The notes under the pieces were generated by a model, which was not told where the DNA came from, searched no databases, and saw only the letters and a program-made list of their open reading frames with translations. A DNA stretch of 64,000 nucleotides from Prochlorococcus sp. AG-402-L18 (GTDB taxonomy: Bacteria > Cyanobacteriota > Cyanobacteriia > PCC-6307 > Cyanobiaceae), in NCBI GenBank assembly GCA_003216725.1, contig QCIL01000002.1, positions 62,001-126,000 on the forward strand, written 5' to 3'. The translations under genes were made by a program, and so were the position numbers. Each line of letters starts with the position of its first letter. Positions within the stretch are counted from its first letter, which is position 1. Shown here piece after piece: positions 27,647 through 46,296 of the stretch.

Positions 27647-28819
27647 TTATTTAATCGATGGTTGAAAATCTTTGCTATTTAGAGGTTTTAATAAGTATAG
27701 TCTTAAAAGTTGGTAACCGTTTAATAGATAGGTAGGTAATTTTTTTAAAGTTTTGGATACTTTGTTTGCATCGCTGTCAGCAATATCAGAAAGGACCTTA
27801 TTATTTTCAACAATTTTATCTAATCTTCCATAAAATGATTTATCATAAACGTCTAGTACAACAGGAAAAACTCTAGCAGCAGTTTCATTTGTTTTATTGA
27901 TAACGTACTGGTCGTAATCTCTAGCATCTAACCCTAATGAACTGTAGAAATCTTTTTTGATTCCAAGATCCCTAGCGTACATAGTAGCGAATACAGCTAG
28001 TAGAAAAAACCTTGACCATAACTTAGATGTCAATGGAAGATTGTTCAAAAAGTATCTAAATCTATGGAAATAATCAAATAGGGGATGTGTAAAGGTAGAG
28101 CCCCCAATGGTAATTTTTTGACTTAATGATTTGACAGTTCTTGGTTGTGCTTTCATTAGTGCATCGAAGAAATCGCCATGTCTATTTTCATCTTGACACC
28201 AATTTTCAAAGTAATTAAATAGTGGAAAAATCTTGTTATCTGGATTCTTTTCGAGATGCCTATAAATTGCGATGTATCTCCAATAGCCAATTTTTTCAGA
28301 TAAATAGGTAGCGTAAAAAATACTTCTAGGTGGAAAATAGGTGTAGTCTTTATTGGCAGTTAAAAAACCTAAATCTAACTGTAATCCAAAGTCACTCATT
28401 GATTTATTCAAAAAACCTGCATGTCTAGCTTCGTCTCTAGCCATATGAGCAAAACATTCAGCGAGAAGAGGGTTTTTGGCTTTAATCCTTTTGCTAAGCT
28501 CCTTATAAAGTAAAAAACCTGAAAATTCTGAAGTACAACTCCCTTCAAGAAAATCAATAAAGAGCTCTCTTGTTTCAGGATCTAATTTTTCTGCAGCTCC
28601 TTCAAATTCAATATTTCTTACAAAATGATGCCTATTATAGTCTTTTCTAAATTCCTCACATATAGCCTCCAATTCCTCCTCATTTATGGATAAATCCATA
28701 TTTTCCATTGCCTCGAAGTCTGTTGTATAAAACCTTGGAGACAATATTGTTTCCTTAGCGGGTACCTTTCCATTATTAACTTCTTTTTTATTTTTTGATT
28801 CAACAGTAGATTGAGTCAT
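27647..28819 (-). CDS. acsF: Mg-protoporphyrin IX monomethyl ester oxidative cyclase (aerobic)
   Basis: AcsF (CHL27) is the diiron enzyme that forms the isocyclic ring of chlorophyll using O2. The 390-residue protein has two iron-ligand motifs of the ExxRH type, [10 protein letters not shown] near residue 148 and [10 protein letters not shown] near 210, and the N-terminal [13 protein letters not shown]. It is probably thylakoid-associated. A Pro/Thr/Lys-rich leader of about 25 residues precedes the conserved part. The gene may cotranscribe with tldD and the pmbA-like gene downstream. Confidence 0.97.
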
Positions 28820-28899
28820 TTTTTATTTGATTTATTAATACTATTATTTACCATTATTTGTATTTTCGAGGGAAAAGTTAACTTGGTGTTATTGTTTAT

Positions 28900-29499
28900 T
28901 TAATTAACTCCTATTAATTTTTGTCCATTTAATCTTTGCAGTACTCTTGAAATAATTAATTTAAGGGTTATTCTTTTTTCGTCAATAAGAAATGATTCAA
29001 TAATACTTGGTTTTTGTTTTGGCTTGGATAAAGAAATACTTTTCGTAGAGCTAATATCTTCTTTCTCAAATGATAGCCAAAAGTTGCAAATATCTTTTAT
29101 TTCGCAATAAATAACCCAACATTCGTCTCCTGCGATCGGTCTTGTAGTGTTTTTGAGATTTATATCCTCTACTTTAAACCCTTTTGTTTTAAATTCCTGT
29201 ACAAGAGATGGAATTAGATGATCATTTATAAATTCTTTAAAAGGTTTTTTTTCAATAGGAATTTCTTTTTTTGGTTTTATTGTTGGATTGTTTGATTGTG
29301 TATTAATTTCTTTATCTTTATCTATACTCGACCTCAAATTATTGTTATTTTGATTCTCATTATTCGAATTATCAGCATTTAAATTATTTTTAGTAAAGTT
29401 TGGTTGAATATCATTTTTTTTGGCGGTACCAGAGTCTATTTTTAAAGGCTCTGTAGCATCATTATTATCTGTATTTTGTAGATTTTTATTATCTTGCAT
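28900..29499 (-). CDS. DUF2996 protein with long Asn-rich leader
   Basis: With ATG 29499 the protein has 199 residues. The first 85 are low-complexity, rich in Asn, Asp and Lys, and probably disordered. The C-terminal domain (KPFKEFINDHLIPSLVQEF, then GDECWVIYCEIKD, and SIIESFLIDEKRITLKLII ending RLNGQKL) matches the cyanobacterial DUF2996 family, whose function is unknown. An in-frame start at 29523 would add eight residues. It lies 80 bp upstream of acsF on the same strand, so joint expression is possible. Confidence 0.75.
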   Translation of the reverse strand: MQDNKNLQNTDNNDATEPLKIDSGTAKKNDIQPNFTKNNLNADNSNNENQNNNNLRSSIDKDKEINTQSNNPTIKPKKEIPIEKKPFKEFINDHLIPSLVQEFKTKGFKVEDINLKNTTRPIAGDECWVIYCEIKDICNFWLSFEKEDISSTKSISLSKPKQKPSIIESFLIDEKRITLKLIISRVLQRLNGQKLIGVN

Positions 29500-29576
29500 A
29501 AAAGTAAATCGAATTAGAAACACATTATAGATAAATTTTCGAACAATTTTATCAGTTTTTATTTATAACCTCATTT

Positions 29577-30032
29577 TTACCAATCGGTGTTATTTTTTTC
29601 CCAATCATCTTGATATCGTTCATTGTAAAAATCCTCATTTGATTGTTCTATATCTTTCCCCTCATTATTCCTGATAACTCTATAGTTTACTGAAATTGTA
29701 GGTTGAGGATCTCTTACATCTCTTTGAGGAGGAATATCAAAGGATTCATTATTTTCATCTTTAAAAGTTGAATTATAATCAGCATCTGTATTTTTATCTT
29801 CATCTTTATATTTATTATTTTTTAGATTTCTTATTAAAAATTTATTTAATAATGCACTTATTATGAATCCTGAAAAAAAAGAAATACTAATTAACTTACC
29901 AACACTTATATCTTGAGTATTCCAGATAAAATATCTAAATGTACTTTTTTGCTTGTTATTTAAAAACAATATAGATTGTATAGTAAGGATTAATGCAAAT
30001 ATTATTATTAATATCTTTTTCTTATAATTCAT
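29577..30032 (-). CDS. Two-span membrane protein with LapA-like layout
   Basis: 151 residues. Two hydrophobic spans (about residues 6-23 and 43-62) are followed by a polar, Asn/Asp-rich cytoplasmic tail with DIPPQRDVRDPQPTISVNYRVI. The hairpin-plus-tail layout resembles LapA/DUF1049 proteins, but the motif match is weak. No function is assigned. It lies downstream of the RNase R-like gene (52 bp) on the same strand. Confidence 0.5.
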   Translation of the reverse strand: MNYKKKILIIIFALILTIQSILFLNNKQKSTFRYFIWNTQDISVGKLISISFFSGFIISALLNKFLIRNLKNNKYKDEDKNTDADYNSTFKDENNESFDIPPQRDVRDPQPTISVNYRVIRNNEGKDIEQSNEDFYNERYQDDWEKNNTDW

Positions 30033-30084
30033 ATTTTAGTTTTAATCATATTTAAATATATTAAATTGAGTTTTTTTAAACTAC

Positions 30085-32313
30085 TCATTTATTTACTAAT
30101 TCAAGATCGATCTGATATTTAAGTATATCAACTTTCATTATTTTTATTTCAATTACATCGCCTATTTTATAAGATTTTTTGGACTTTCTACCAATAAGTA
30201 AATTCTGCCTTGATCTGTATTCATACCAATCATTATTTAGTGTACTTACATGAACTAGACCTTCAACTTGAAGCTCAGTAATTTCTACAAAAAAACCATA
30301 ACTTTGTACAGTGGTTATTAATCCACTATAGGAATTATTGATAAGTTTCTCAGCTTGTCTAACTTGTTTTATATTTATAATATTAGATTTATACTGCCTT
30401 ACTTTGTTTTTGTAATCATTAATCTTACTTATAAGTAATTCATTAAATAATAACGCCATATTCTTTGTTATTGATGAATTATAGATATTCCATTTAACTT
30501 TTTCCCAACTGTCTTTTTCCATTATATTAATTACTTCTGAGTTACTTTTATTATTTCTTTTGCCATTTATAATCATATTATAAATATTGTGTTGGTTCAT
30601 TAAATTAATAAAATCAAATGAAGGTAAAGTCCATGGTGAAATATAGATTTTTTCAGATTTAGTTATTTGCGATTCTTTTGTGATTAATTTTGCTTGATTA
30701 TGTCGTAATAAATTAATAAGTAGCTTGTTAAGTATTCTTTTTTTATCTTGGTCGTTACAAGACTCAATTAATTCTTTAAATGTTAATGAACCACTTTCAT
30801 TAAGTTGTATATTGCTATCTATTAGTTCTGAATGCTTGATAAGATCACTTGTATTTATATAGTCTAAATCCTGCGAAATGAATGATGCATTATTGAGGCC
30901 ATATTCTCTTGAATGTTTGAACCATAATCTATTTGCTTCATAAAGTAAAGGTGAAATAAAAGTTTGTATATCGTAAGGATTTAGTGGTTCGAAATATTCA
31001 TTTGAAAAATCAACAGGATTATGAATAAATAGTTCATTCAATGAATCAATATTATTATTGGGCGTTTTTATTTCAATTCTTCCATTAGATGTTTGGATTT
31101 TTCTAAATTCTTTTGAAATTTCTAATATTGTTTCTAAATCTTCAATGTGCTCTTTAATAGGTTTTAATATTCTAGAAGTAATTCTGGCATTGCTCTTTTT
31201 GGATAATAATGCTTCTATTTGTTTATTTCCAACGATAAGAACACATTTTACTTTTGTTAAGTGAAAGGACCAATTCACTATTTTGAAATTACTATTTATT
31301 TCTATACATAAACTTAAGGCTTCATTTACTTCATTCAATTTAAATTCCGAAGTATTAACTATATTTTCATTGAGGTAGTTTTGCCAACCATTTAATAGTG
31401 GAAAAGATTCAAATCTGTCAATGAATATATCTATATTTTTCTTAGATCCAATATCTAGTCTTTCTGCAATAGAATTTGTATGTATCCAAAGTTTAAATCC
31501 TTTATTTCTACTTTTTTCTATTTGAAAGATAGGGAGTAATGGCGCATTTTGGCTATTCCAACTTTTAAGCATATATGAGTTGCTACCAGTTAAATCAATC
31601 CTTTGATCTTGATTAATATTTTCTAATTTTATTTCTTCATTCTTATTAGATATATTTAAATTTGTTTTAGACAACACAAATTCTATATCAAAATTTTCAT
31701 TATTGTTTAATTTTAATTCTTTTATTACATGCCCGACCCCCTCATTTTGTCCAATAGGAAATCTATCTATTTTTACCTTAACGATATTTTTATCATCTGC
31801 TATGAATTTATATTTTTCATCTTCTTTTGGCAATTTTATTTTAGCTAATATTCTGTCATCAATCGGTATCCCATAAACCTCTCCATTAAGGATATCAACT
31901 TTAGCTAAAAGGATTTGATTTGTTCTTTCAAGAATACAATCTATGATTCCTTCAGGCGATCTTCTTCGGACTCCTTCTTTTAATATCCTTACTAAAACCT
32001 TATCTCCATTCCAAGCATGGTTAAGTAAATTTTCTTTTATGTAAATATCTTCTGTATTATTATCTCTAACTGCAAAACAATAACCTTTACTACTACATCT
32101 TATTTTAGCAACTATATGTTTTTTATCTTTTACGTTTGAATACTCGTTATTTGAATTCTTATTAATTATTTCTAATTTTTCCAGAGCACTCAATGCTATA
32201 AGTAATTTATCCTTATCAGATTTTTTTGTTAATTTTAGTAATCTGCATAATTTCTTGTATTCTAAACTGTCTTCTTGTTTTAATTTATCAATTATCGAAG
32301 AGGTTGAAAACAT
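30085..32313 (-). CDS. RNase R/II-like protein with degenerate catalytic site
   Basis: 742 residues with the RNase R layout: a helical N-terminus, cold-shock-type OB domains (about 60-200), an RNB-like domain (about 235-600) and a C-terminal S1 domain (SGLITTVQSYGFFVEI, 663-740). The RNB fold is recognisable from KGFKLWIHTNSIAERLDIGS. The usual Asp cluster (D-x5-D-x-D-D) is replaced by WNSQNAPLLPIFQIE (252-266), and the catalytic Arg motif SPIRRY by SPWTLP (559-564). Exonuclease activity is therefore unlikely. It probably binds RNA or a partner. The frame is intact throughout, so it is not an obvious pseudogene. The usual name (rnr/vacB) would mislead. Confidence 0.8.
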   Translation of the reverse strand: MFSTSSIIDKLKQEDSLEYKKLCRLLKLTKKSDKDKLLIALSALEKLEIINKNSNNEYSNVKDKKHIVAKIRCSSKGYCFAVRDNNTEDIYIKENLLNHAWNGDKVLVRILKEGVRRRSPEGIIDCILERTNQILLAKVDILNGEVYGIPIDDRILAKIKLPKEDEKYKFIADDKNIVKVKIDRFPIGQNEGVGHVIKELKLNNNENFDIEFVLSKTNLNISNKNEEIKLENINQDQRIDLTGSNSYMLKSWNSQNAPLLPIFQIEKSRNKGFKLWIHTNSIAERLDIGSKKNIDIFIDRFESFPLLNGWQNYLNENIVNTSEFKLNEVNEALSLCIEINSNFKIVNWSFHLTKVKCVLIVGNKQIEALLSKKSNARITSRILKPIKEHIEDLETILEISKEFRKIQTSNGRIEIKTPNNNIDSLNELFIHNPVDFSNEYFEPLNPYDIQTFISPLLYEANRLWFKHSREYGLNNASFISQDLDYINTSDLIKHSELIDSNIQLNESGSLTFKELIESCNDQDKKRILNKLLINLLRHNQAKLITKESQITKSEKIYISPWTLPSFDFINLMNQHNIYNMIINGKRNNKSNSEVINIMEKDSWEKVKWNIYNSSITKNMALLFNELLISKINDYKNKVRQYKSNIINIKQVRQAEKLINNSYSGLITTVQSYGFFVEITELQVEGLVHVSTLNNDWYEYRSRQNLLIGRKSKKSYKIGDVIEIKIMKVDILKYQIDLELVNK

Positions 32314-32410
32314 AGCAGATAATATCTTAAAACAATATCTATATTTTATATTATTACTTAAAACTTATATTTTTACATCTTTATAATATGGCATAAAACT
32401 ATTTAACCCC

Positions 32411-32710
32411 TTAGTTTTGATTATCATTACTTTCCGCTGAAAATGTATTTATTAAAAGCTTTATGCCAATAATTAGAAAGGTTACTGATGCTATAGATTT
32501 TAAAATTACTTCAGGTATGAAATTTGATATAGATCCTCCTGCTAAGGCACCTAATAAGCTAGCCAATACAAGAGCAAATGCTGATCCTAAAAAAACAGCT
32601 AATGGTCTATTTGATGTCCCACTTATTGTTAAAGTTGCCAATTGAGTTTTATCTCCTAATTCGGCAATAAAAACTGTTATAAATGTCGATATTAATAAAC
32701 TTATAATCAT
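32411..32710 (-). CDS. Half-size Gdt1/UPF0016 Mn2+/Ca2+ transporter, subunit 1
   Basis: 99 residues with about three membrane spans and one copy of the family motif, read as AELGDKTQLATL near residue 15. Full-length members (cyanobacterial Mnx, plant PAM71, yeast Gdt1) carry two such motifs and transport Mn2+ or Ca2+. Here each motif is on its own small protein. The next gene upstream encodes the other half with no intergenic base, so a heteromer is likely. In cyanobacteria the role is Mn delivery to, or protection of, photosystem II. Confidence 0.85.
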   Translation of the reverse strand: MIISLLISTFITVFIAELGDKTQLATLTISGTSNRPLAVFLGSAFALVLASLLGALAGGSISNFIPEVILKSIASVTFLIIGIKLLINTFSAESNDNQN

Positions 32711-33034
32711 TTATATATAATTTTTAAAAATGTCATAATCTATAAATACACTAATTATTATCATCAATAAACCAGTAAAAAATGCAAATTTATTAGGAGA
32801 TATTTTTCTTGATAACCATTTCCCAATTAAGACTCCGACAACACTAGAACTTATTAATGCTAATGAACTGCCTATAAAAACAATTATCGGCTTTCCTGAT
32901 TCGGCTGATAACATTAAAGTTGCTATTTGAGTTTTATCTCCTAATTCAGCTATGAATATTGTAGTAAAAGAAGTTATAAGAATATTTGAAAAACTTTTTT
33001 CTTCTTCACTCTTTTTATTTATTTGATTGTTCAT
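32711..33034 (-). CDS. Half-size Gdt1/UPF0016 Mn2+/Ca2+ transporter, subunit 2
   Basis: 107 residues. A charged N-terminus (NNQINKKSEEEK) is followed by three spans with the motif AELGDKTQIATLML near residue 31. It differs from its neighbour by the longer leader and a different C-terminal span, so the two are homologous and not identical. The stop abuts the start of subunit 1, and its own start overlaps the YkgJ-like gene by 4 bp, giving a tight three-gene unit. Confidence 0.85.
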   Translation of the reverse strand: MNNQINKKSEEEKSFSNILITSFTTIFIAELGDKTQIATLMLSAESGKPIIVFIGSSLALISSSVVGVLIGKWLSRKISPNKFAFFTGLLMIIISVFIDYDIFKNYI

Positions 33035-33378
33035 TTTCTTGATATAGCGATATTAAAGTTACGCATTTGTTGACTTCTTACTCCATGGATCGATGATATA
33101 TGTTGTTTGCAGCAATCTATTAGAAATTTATCACCCTTTTTTTTATATTCTTTAAAGGAGCTAGAAAATTTTTCAACTTGACAGAAATGCGGTCTATTTT
33201 CATAAATCGTACACTTTTTATTTTCTCTATCTAAAAATTTACACCAACCATCCTTAGAGGTCATTGAATTAATTAATGCAATATCATCTTTATTCAATTT
33301 GTCACTTAAATCAGCTCTATCAGTTAAGTCAAACTTACAACAAGCTCCACAATTTTCTATACAACTCCATGTTTTCAT
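33031..33378 (-). CDS. YkgJ-family cysteine-cluster protein
   Basis: 115 residues. The Cys pattern is CIENCGACC near the N-terminus, then WCKF, KKCTIYENRPHFCQVE and a later DCCKQH. This suits a zinc or iron-sulfur cluster, and the IYENRPxxC segment is the hallmark of the YkgJ/CxxCxxCC family. The role is unknown. It is the first gene of a unit with the two Gdt1 halves, so a link to metal handling is possible. Confidence 0.8.
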   Translation of the reverse strand: MKTWSCIENCGACCKFDLTDRADLSDKLNKDDIALINSMTSKDGWCKFLDRENKKCTIYENRPHFCQVEKFSSSFKEYKKKGDKFLIDCCKQHISSIHGVRSQQMRNFNIAISRK

Positions 33379-45111: not shown

Positions 45112-46296
45112 TTAATGAATAAACTCTAAAAGATTATTATCATTTTTATTGTATTTCACTTTATATATTTTATTTGTGTATGTTTCTATTGAAATATATA
45201 AATTAATAAGTATTTCTAGAGAAAATTCTGGAAAATAAACTAATGCAATATTTTTCTTATTATTAATCCACCTGATGAAAATTATTCTATAAGTTTCTTT
45301 ATTGTTATTAGAAAAAAATAAATTTAAATATTTTGTTTTGTCATTTTTATAAATATTGTTATTTTCTAGTTGTCTTTTTTTTGTATAATCTATTAATTGA
45401 TTAATCTTGTCATCATCTAATAATTTATAGTTATTAAGATTATTAAATACTTGTCTTTGAACAATCAAATCTAAATATCTTCTTAATGGAGAGGTTGATT
45501 GAGTATATCTTGATAATCCTAATGATTCATGAGCACTTGGTTTTGTTGTAATGAAACTTTTACCCATATATTGTTTTAATATTGAAAATTTTATTTCGCT
45601 ATCATTATATTTGGAAAGTATTTCCAGATAATCACAATTTATTTTTTGAGTCCTGTAAGGCGAGGATATTTTATTCTCAAATAAATATAAACTTGTTACA
45701 TATCCCATAAGAATCATAGATTCAGCCACAATTTGTTGGGAAATAGTTTTTTCTTCCTTAATTATTTCAACACTTTGATTTCTTATTACTATTTTATTAG
45801 TAGGCATGTCAAAAATAATCGCTCCATTTCTTTTTCGAAAATTTATGCTTTTACATAACAATTTCTTTATTTCATTTAATTCAATTTCCTCTTTCGGTTC
45901 TAATTCAATTATTTCTTCTGTATCCTCATAAGTTAATTGATATTTAGGTTTAATAATTGCTTCTTCAATTTCATACTTTTTTATTGAACCATCATCATTA
46001 AAAATCAATGATGCACTTATTGTTTCGGAAATTTTATTTTGTTTTAAATTTGCAATATCAAGTATTTCTTGTGGCAACATTGGAATATAATTTTCTACTA
46101 AATATAAACTTTGATTATTTCTTCTTGCATCTAGATCAATTTGAGAATCTTGTTGAAATAATCTACATGGATTACTGATATGAATCCATAACTTTTTAAT
46201 ATTTCCCTGTATTGATTCTAGGGAAAAAGCGTCATCAACTTCTTTGGGATCATTTGAATCAACTATATAAGTTTTTAAGTAAGTTAAATCCCTCAA
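45112..46296 (-). CDS. Short RNB-domain exoribonuclease (RNase II/R family)
   Basis: 394 residues, essentially only the RNB catalytic domain. The metal-binding cluster is present as VDSNDPKEVDDAF (D13, E19, D21, D22), followed by LWIHISNPCRL. The catalytic Arg motif STSPLRRYLDL (268-277) is intact. The N-terminal cold-shock domains and a clear C-terminal S1 domain are missing. It should therefore be able to hydrolyse RNA 3' to 5' but lacks the family's usual RNA-gripping parts. Compare the RNase R-like protein at 30085-32313, which has the opposite defect. It is encoded downstream of rpsR (34 bp). Confidence 0.85.
   Translation of the reverse strand: MRDLTYLKTYIVDSNDPKEVDDAFSLESIQGNIKKLWIHISNPCRLFQQDSQIDLDARRNNQSLYLVENYIPMLPQEILDIANLKQNKISETISASLIFNDDGSIKKYEIEEAIIKPKYQLTYEDTEEIIELEPKEEIELNEIKKLLCKSINFRKRNGAIIFDMPTNKIVIRNQSVEIIKEEKTISQQIVAESMILMGYVTSLYLFENKISSPYRTQKINCDYLEILSKYNDSEIKFSILKQYMGKSFITTKPSAHESLGLSRYTQSTSPLRRYLDLIVQRQVFNNLNNYKLLDDDKINQLIDYTKKRQLENNNIYKNDKTKYLNLFFSNNNKETYRIIFIRWINNKKNIALVYFPEFSLEILINLYISIETYTNKIYKVKYNKNDNNLLEFIH

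Follow-up and report, generated by a model that had tools for sequence, protein, structure and literature searches.

The 742-aa protein encoded at positions 30085–32313 of the window (the 64,000-nucleotide stretch of Prochlorococcus sp. AG-402-L18 DNA analysed here) is the Prochlorococcus orthologue of Zam. We hold it rather probable that this RNase R-like protein has lost RNA hydrolysis and serves as a redox-gated RNA-binding adaptor that works with RNase E. Thomas et al. (2022) have already reported that Zam proteins throughout the cyanobacteria are RNB-family members with a degenerate catalytic site (PMC9145284), so the pseudo-nuclease reading is no new discovery; added here to the published family are a total loss of the active site and a new motif in Cyanobiaceae, a graded series of losses elsewhere, and a truncated form of Rnb, the second RNB protein of the genome. 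The features of interest are as follows.

30085–32313 (−): zam, 742-aa RNase R-like protein without catalytic residues (Pfam, alignment, model, tree)
32128–32313 (−): N-terminal helical region, residues 1–62 (helices 4–13, 19–25 and 31–46 in the AlphaFold2 model)
31918–32127 (−): CSD1 / OB_RNB domain, residues 63–132, the best conserved part (Pfam PF08206; median dN/dS 0.058)
32077–32097 (−): C73-SSKGY-C79, conserved redox cysteine pair marking Zam (Cys positions; PMC9145284)
31639–31917 (−): CSD2 region, residues 133–225 (Pfam CSD2 in two stretches; beta-barrel in the model)
30424–31638 (−): RNB-fold region, residues 226–630, catalytically degenerate (Pfam PF00773, model, alignment)
31531–31566 (−): former Asp cluster, residues 250–261, KSWNSQNAPLLP (alignment to RNase II and RNase R)
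30610–30633 (−): former catalytic Arg motif, residues 561–568, WTLPSFDF (alignment; R500 replaced by F566)
30088–30348 (−): C-terminal S1 domain, residues 656–742 (Pfam PF00575; median dN/dS 0.066)
45112–46296 (−): Rnb, the genome's only other RNB protein, 394 aa, catalytic residues present (Pfam, alignment, model)

Domain layout and identity of Zam

The zam frame begins with ATG and has no internal stops, and is thus intact over its 742 codons, as the first-pass annotation of this DNA had claimed. Pfam domains above the cut-offs were OB_RNB (residues 70–124), CSD2, RNB (238–540, 64 bits) and S1 (659–737); the N-terminal OB-type regions and the C-terminal S1 domain noted earlier are therefore still there. 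Pfam and the AlphaFold2 model (pLDDT 83.6, pTM 0.83) together give the CSD1-CSD2-RNB-S1 architecture of Zam. On superposition, the predicted structure matched RNase R along its whole length (5xgu: Z 29.9, rmsd 3.2, 595 residues aligned; 7dic: Z 31.9, rmsd 3.9, 606 residues), and this fold, along with the Pfam match, bears out the statement that the RNB fold is recognisable. Full-length fold and domain order are those of RNase R from E. coli (5xgu), Mycoplasma (7dic) and B. subtilis (8cdu), but the Asp cluster and Arg of these enzymes are missing in the window Zam, and its score with the curated NCBIfam RNase_R profile (154.8 bits) did not reach the cut-off of 597.85. The model also matched the yeast pseudonuclease Ssd1 (7am1: Z 28.5, rmsd 4.0, 603 residues). 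Like Zam, Ssd1 belongs to the RNase II family and combines conserved cold-shock domains with a relaxed RNB region, but it is a fungal protein that arose by an independent loss from Dis3L2 and has channel-blocking insertions, so the comparison concerns only the way the two may work (PMC8934651, PMC8097288).

Zam is defined by the redox cysteines C73 and C79 (PMC9145284). Both are present in the window protein, in a CSSKGYCF motif of CSD1 and with numbers identical to those in PCC 7002 Zam; every full-length sequence in the alignment has C73, and C79 occurs in 99% of the Cyanobiaceae sequences and 97% of the rest. A tree of 83 proteins, made by a quick maximum-likelihood method with no bootstrap and containing several long branches, placed all 60 Zams in one group (SH-aLRT 100) apart from 19 cyanobacterial Rnbs. 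The genome has two RNB-domain genes, zam and the gene for the catalytic Rnb, which is the published cyanobacterial pattern with one copy named Zam (PMC9145284). Among the best 80 matches of a contig scan, which came mostly from Prochlorococcus and Synechococcus, the closest named relatives were Prochlorococcus single-cell genomes, at 70–72% identity. The window protein is like Zam of Synechocystis (Sll1910) and Synechococcus PCC 7002 (A1543) (PMC9145284) in domain order, the C73/C79 pair, the lost catalytic site, the catalytic Rnb alongside it and its clade, but differs in belonging to a Cyanobiaceae branch with complete loss and Wx5PxLP at the Asp site. The name Prochlorococcus does not occur in the main text of PMC9145284.

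Several other cysteines are conserved. C126 (31936–31938) is invariant in 113 Cyanobiaceae-like Zams, with Leu at this position in 94% of the others, and C23, C336, C357 and C519 are 99–100% conserved in Prochlorococcus but are not the consensus in other cyanobacteria. All five are candidates for extra redox or structural cysteines.

Loss and replacement of the active site

In an alignment with E. coli RNase II and RNase R, the aspartates D201, D207, D209 and D210 of RNase II, which share their columns with D272, D278, D280 and D281 of RNase R, align with K250, P258, L260 and P261 of Zam, so the metal-binding Asp cluster has indeed been replaced, as claimed from the first inspection of the DNA. 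Likewise, Y253 of RNase II is replaced by P305, R500 by F566 and, in a poorly aligned column, E390 by S454. Of the residues of active RNase R and RNase II tested, the window protein thus keeps none of the four Asp and has Phe in place of Arg. The first-pass annotation was right about the loss of the Arg motif but not about its position: the equivalent of SPIRRY is LPSFDF (563–568), four residues downstream of the proposed SPWTLP (559–564). The other two peptides that it cited, WNSQNAPLLPIFQ and KGFKLWIHTNSIAERLDIGS, are residues 252–264 and 271–290.

All 75 sequences more than 50% identical to the window protein have lost the Asp residues and Arg, so the replacements are not an effect of chance or sequencing, and a sequencing or assembly error was rejected. 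The Arg is also missing from all 38 further Cyanobiaceae-like sequences, among which a single Asp is retained in one case. For the Cyanobiaceae-like Zams as a whole, the Arg is retained in 0 of 113 and 112 have no Asp at all; the alignment of orthologues that had been suggested as a check therefore points to a loss fixed throughout the clade. Among 34 Zams of other cyanobacteria, 29 have the Arg and some have one to three of the four Asp (two or three in 12), although these counts are biased upwards because the 34 sequences were mainly selected for a strong RNB-domain score. The published statement that the canonical site is absent from every Zam (PMC9145284) holds here, while the degree of loss varies greatly. 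Cyanobacteria thus present a graded series, in which loss of the active site is partial in many lineages and total in Cyanobiaceae, and which has its counterpart in the recurrent loss described in fungi for Dis3L2/Ssd1. The variable degree of loss may bear on the conflicting reports of an active Alr1240 and an inactive PCC 7002 Zam, and the series offers natural test cases that could reconcile them. Zam is also one of few bacterial pseudonucleases of the RNase II/R family with a knockout phenotype. In genomes from other classes of the phylum than that of the window genome, there are RNB proteins in which the Arg and most or all of the catalytic Asp are present; these could serve as outgroups to date when Zam lost its site.

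The former Asp site of Cyanobiaceae Zams carries near-invariant W252, P258, L260 and P261 (Wx5PxLP), which argues that it was rebuilt and not just eroded. In the RNB region, 33 sites are at least 95% conserved in the 113 Cyanobiaceae-like Zams, and at 20 of them less than 50% of the other Zams share the residue. These 20 include P258, L260 and P261, exactly at the positions of D207, D209 and D210; next to the two lost motifs stand W252 and W561. Judging from this pattern of residues, we infer that Wx5PxLP reflects a new constraint, not simple erosion.

Zam might, alternatively, still be a nuclease by way of replacement residues or an unusual metal site. The review PMC10989914 reports that Anabaena Alr1240 degrades unstructured RNA, so Zams are perhaps not all inert. 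Against this, Arg, Tyr and the fourth Asp have been lost as well, and a search for catalytic Asp supplied from another position turned up, for the RNB region, only a handful of acidic residues that are near-invariant among Cyanobiaceae Zams (D240, E284, E302, D448 and D484), which are scattered in the sequence with no DxxxxxDxDD-like cluster. Retained activity of this kind is very improbable, and the window Zam is predicted to be unable to hydrolyse RNA.

Maintenance of zam in Cyanobiaceae

A zam match was found in all 151 Cyanobiaceae genomes and in 36 of 40 relatives, and three of the four relatives without a match are incomplete genomes of the same genus (65–83% complete). Since dS exceeds 1 when the window gene is compared with its closest relatives, dN/dS was taken from pairs among other Prochlorococcus (Nei-Gojobori method, 1856 non-independent pairs), with medians of 0.167 for the whole gene, 0.058 for CSD1, 0.066 for S1 and 0.215 for the RNB region. 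This check, also proposed beforehand, points to purifying selection (median 0.17), strongest in CSD1 and S1, which argues that zam is no pseudogene. That the RNB region evolves fastest is what a decaying gene might show, but the intact frame, the match in 151 of 151 genomes, dN/dS well below 1 in every domain and the new near-invariant residues in the RNB region make decay exceedingly unlikely, and we rejected it on the genome matches and the dN/dS values. The earlier view of a pseudo-nuclease with RNA-binding domains, which mentioned neither Zam, nor its redox cysteines, nor a link to RNase E, is in good agreement with the clade-fixed loss, the RNase R fold, the purifying selection and the presence of a separate catalytic RNB gene.

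Possible role in RNA turnover

The window Zam most likely helps to regulate RNA turnover without itself degrading RNA, and from the evidence as a whole its role would most likely be that of a redox-gated RNA-binding adaptor acting with RNase E. CSD1 and S1 would bind RNA, the C73/C79 pair would gate the protein, and Zam would act as an adaptor with RNase E in RNA turnover. The genome encodes RNase E and a two-domain RNase PH protein (PNPase-like). It speaks against this reading that the PCC 7002 Zam phenotypes involve phycobilisomes, which Prochlorococcus largely lacks. The redox link comes from PCC 7002 (PMC9145284) and the RNase E link from Anabaena (reviewed in PMC10989914); redox activity, a photosynthesis phenotype and RNase E binding have been published for these two organisms only. 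The first-pass annotation had put forward an RNA chaperone, an RNA-protecting factor or a scaffold as candidate roles; the published data favour a regulatory role for Zam in RNA turnover and photosynthesis. Alr1240 is named Zam by Thomas et al., and its CSD and S1 domains are reported in the review PMC10989914 to mediate RNase E binding; its reported degradation of RNA sets Alr1240 apart from the window Zam. In marine picocyanobacteria the C1 subregion is missing from RNase E (PMC10989914), so complexes of the enzyme may differ there.

Alternatively, Zam could serve RNase E or ribosomes purely as a protein scaffold or as an allosteric partner and make no contact with RNA of its own. Purified PCC 7002 Zam showed no activity and bound no RNA, though it was prone to aggregate (PMC9145284), a result that also counts against the adaptor, and Alr1240 binds RNase E 1:1 and stimulates it, according to the review PMC10989914. 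However, constraint is strongest in CSD1 and S1, with which proteins of this family contact RNA, and the RNA-contact residues of loop L12 are conserved (PMC9145284), which makes the scaffold unlikely compared with an RNA-binding adaptor.

The Rnb of the window starts with TTG in the listed ORF and begins at the RNB domain; in the alignment its Asp motif is retained, though the second residue is Glu, and so are the Tyr and the Arg. The domains PF23163, PF25255 and PF23161 (CSD, winged-helix and HTH of other cyanobacterial Rnbs) were not found in it. Its model consists of RNB and a C-terminal OB/S1-like barrel, with Deinococcus 2r7d as the best match (Z 38.5, rmsd 2.9, 364 residues). Leaving out hits split at contig ends, Rnb frames are 395–466 aa in Cyanobiaceae genomes of up to 2.0 Mb and in genus g126, and about 675–736 aa in larger-genome Cyanobiaceae; the short forms make one group in the 83-protein tree (SH-aLRT 95). 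A non-exhaustive literature search found no paper on the truncated Rnb, which raises the question of how 3'–5' RNA decay proceeds in a minimal genome.

The retained catalytic motif of this N-terminally reduced Rnb, and the confinement of the short form to one tree group of small genomes and g126, would suit a role for Zam in streamlined picocyanobacteria as an RNA-binding or gating module acting in trans. RNase II/R function would then be split between catalysis by Rnb and RNA binding by Zam, which might present RNA to, or gate, Rnb or RNase E under redox control. However, Cyanobiaceae whose Rnb is full-length also have an inactive Zam, so there is no close coupling between the two losses, and the Deinococcus RNase II-family protein 2r7d is also short (461-aa chain), so Rnb may work alone. 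Both the supply of such a module in trans and the wider division of labour are doubtful, and the adaptor acting with RNase E remains our preferred reading.

The gene neighbourhood is consistent with a photosynthetic link, though no proof of it. The order conserved in Cyanobiaceae, seen in the window at 27647–33378, is YkgJ-like, GDT1, GDT1, zam, LapA-like, DUF2996, acsF. All 57 flanked Cyanobiaceae loci checked have a pair of half-size GDT1 genes ahead of zam and DUF2996 beyond it, and most of these loci then continue with acsF, the gene for the magnesium-protoporphyrin cyclase of chlorophyll synthesis. By Pfam, GDT1, a divalent cation/proton antiporter, is split in the window, at 32411–33034 (−), between neighbouring half-size genes that encode 99 and 107 aa.
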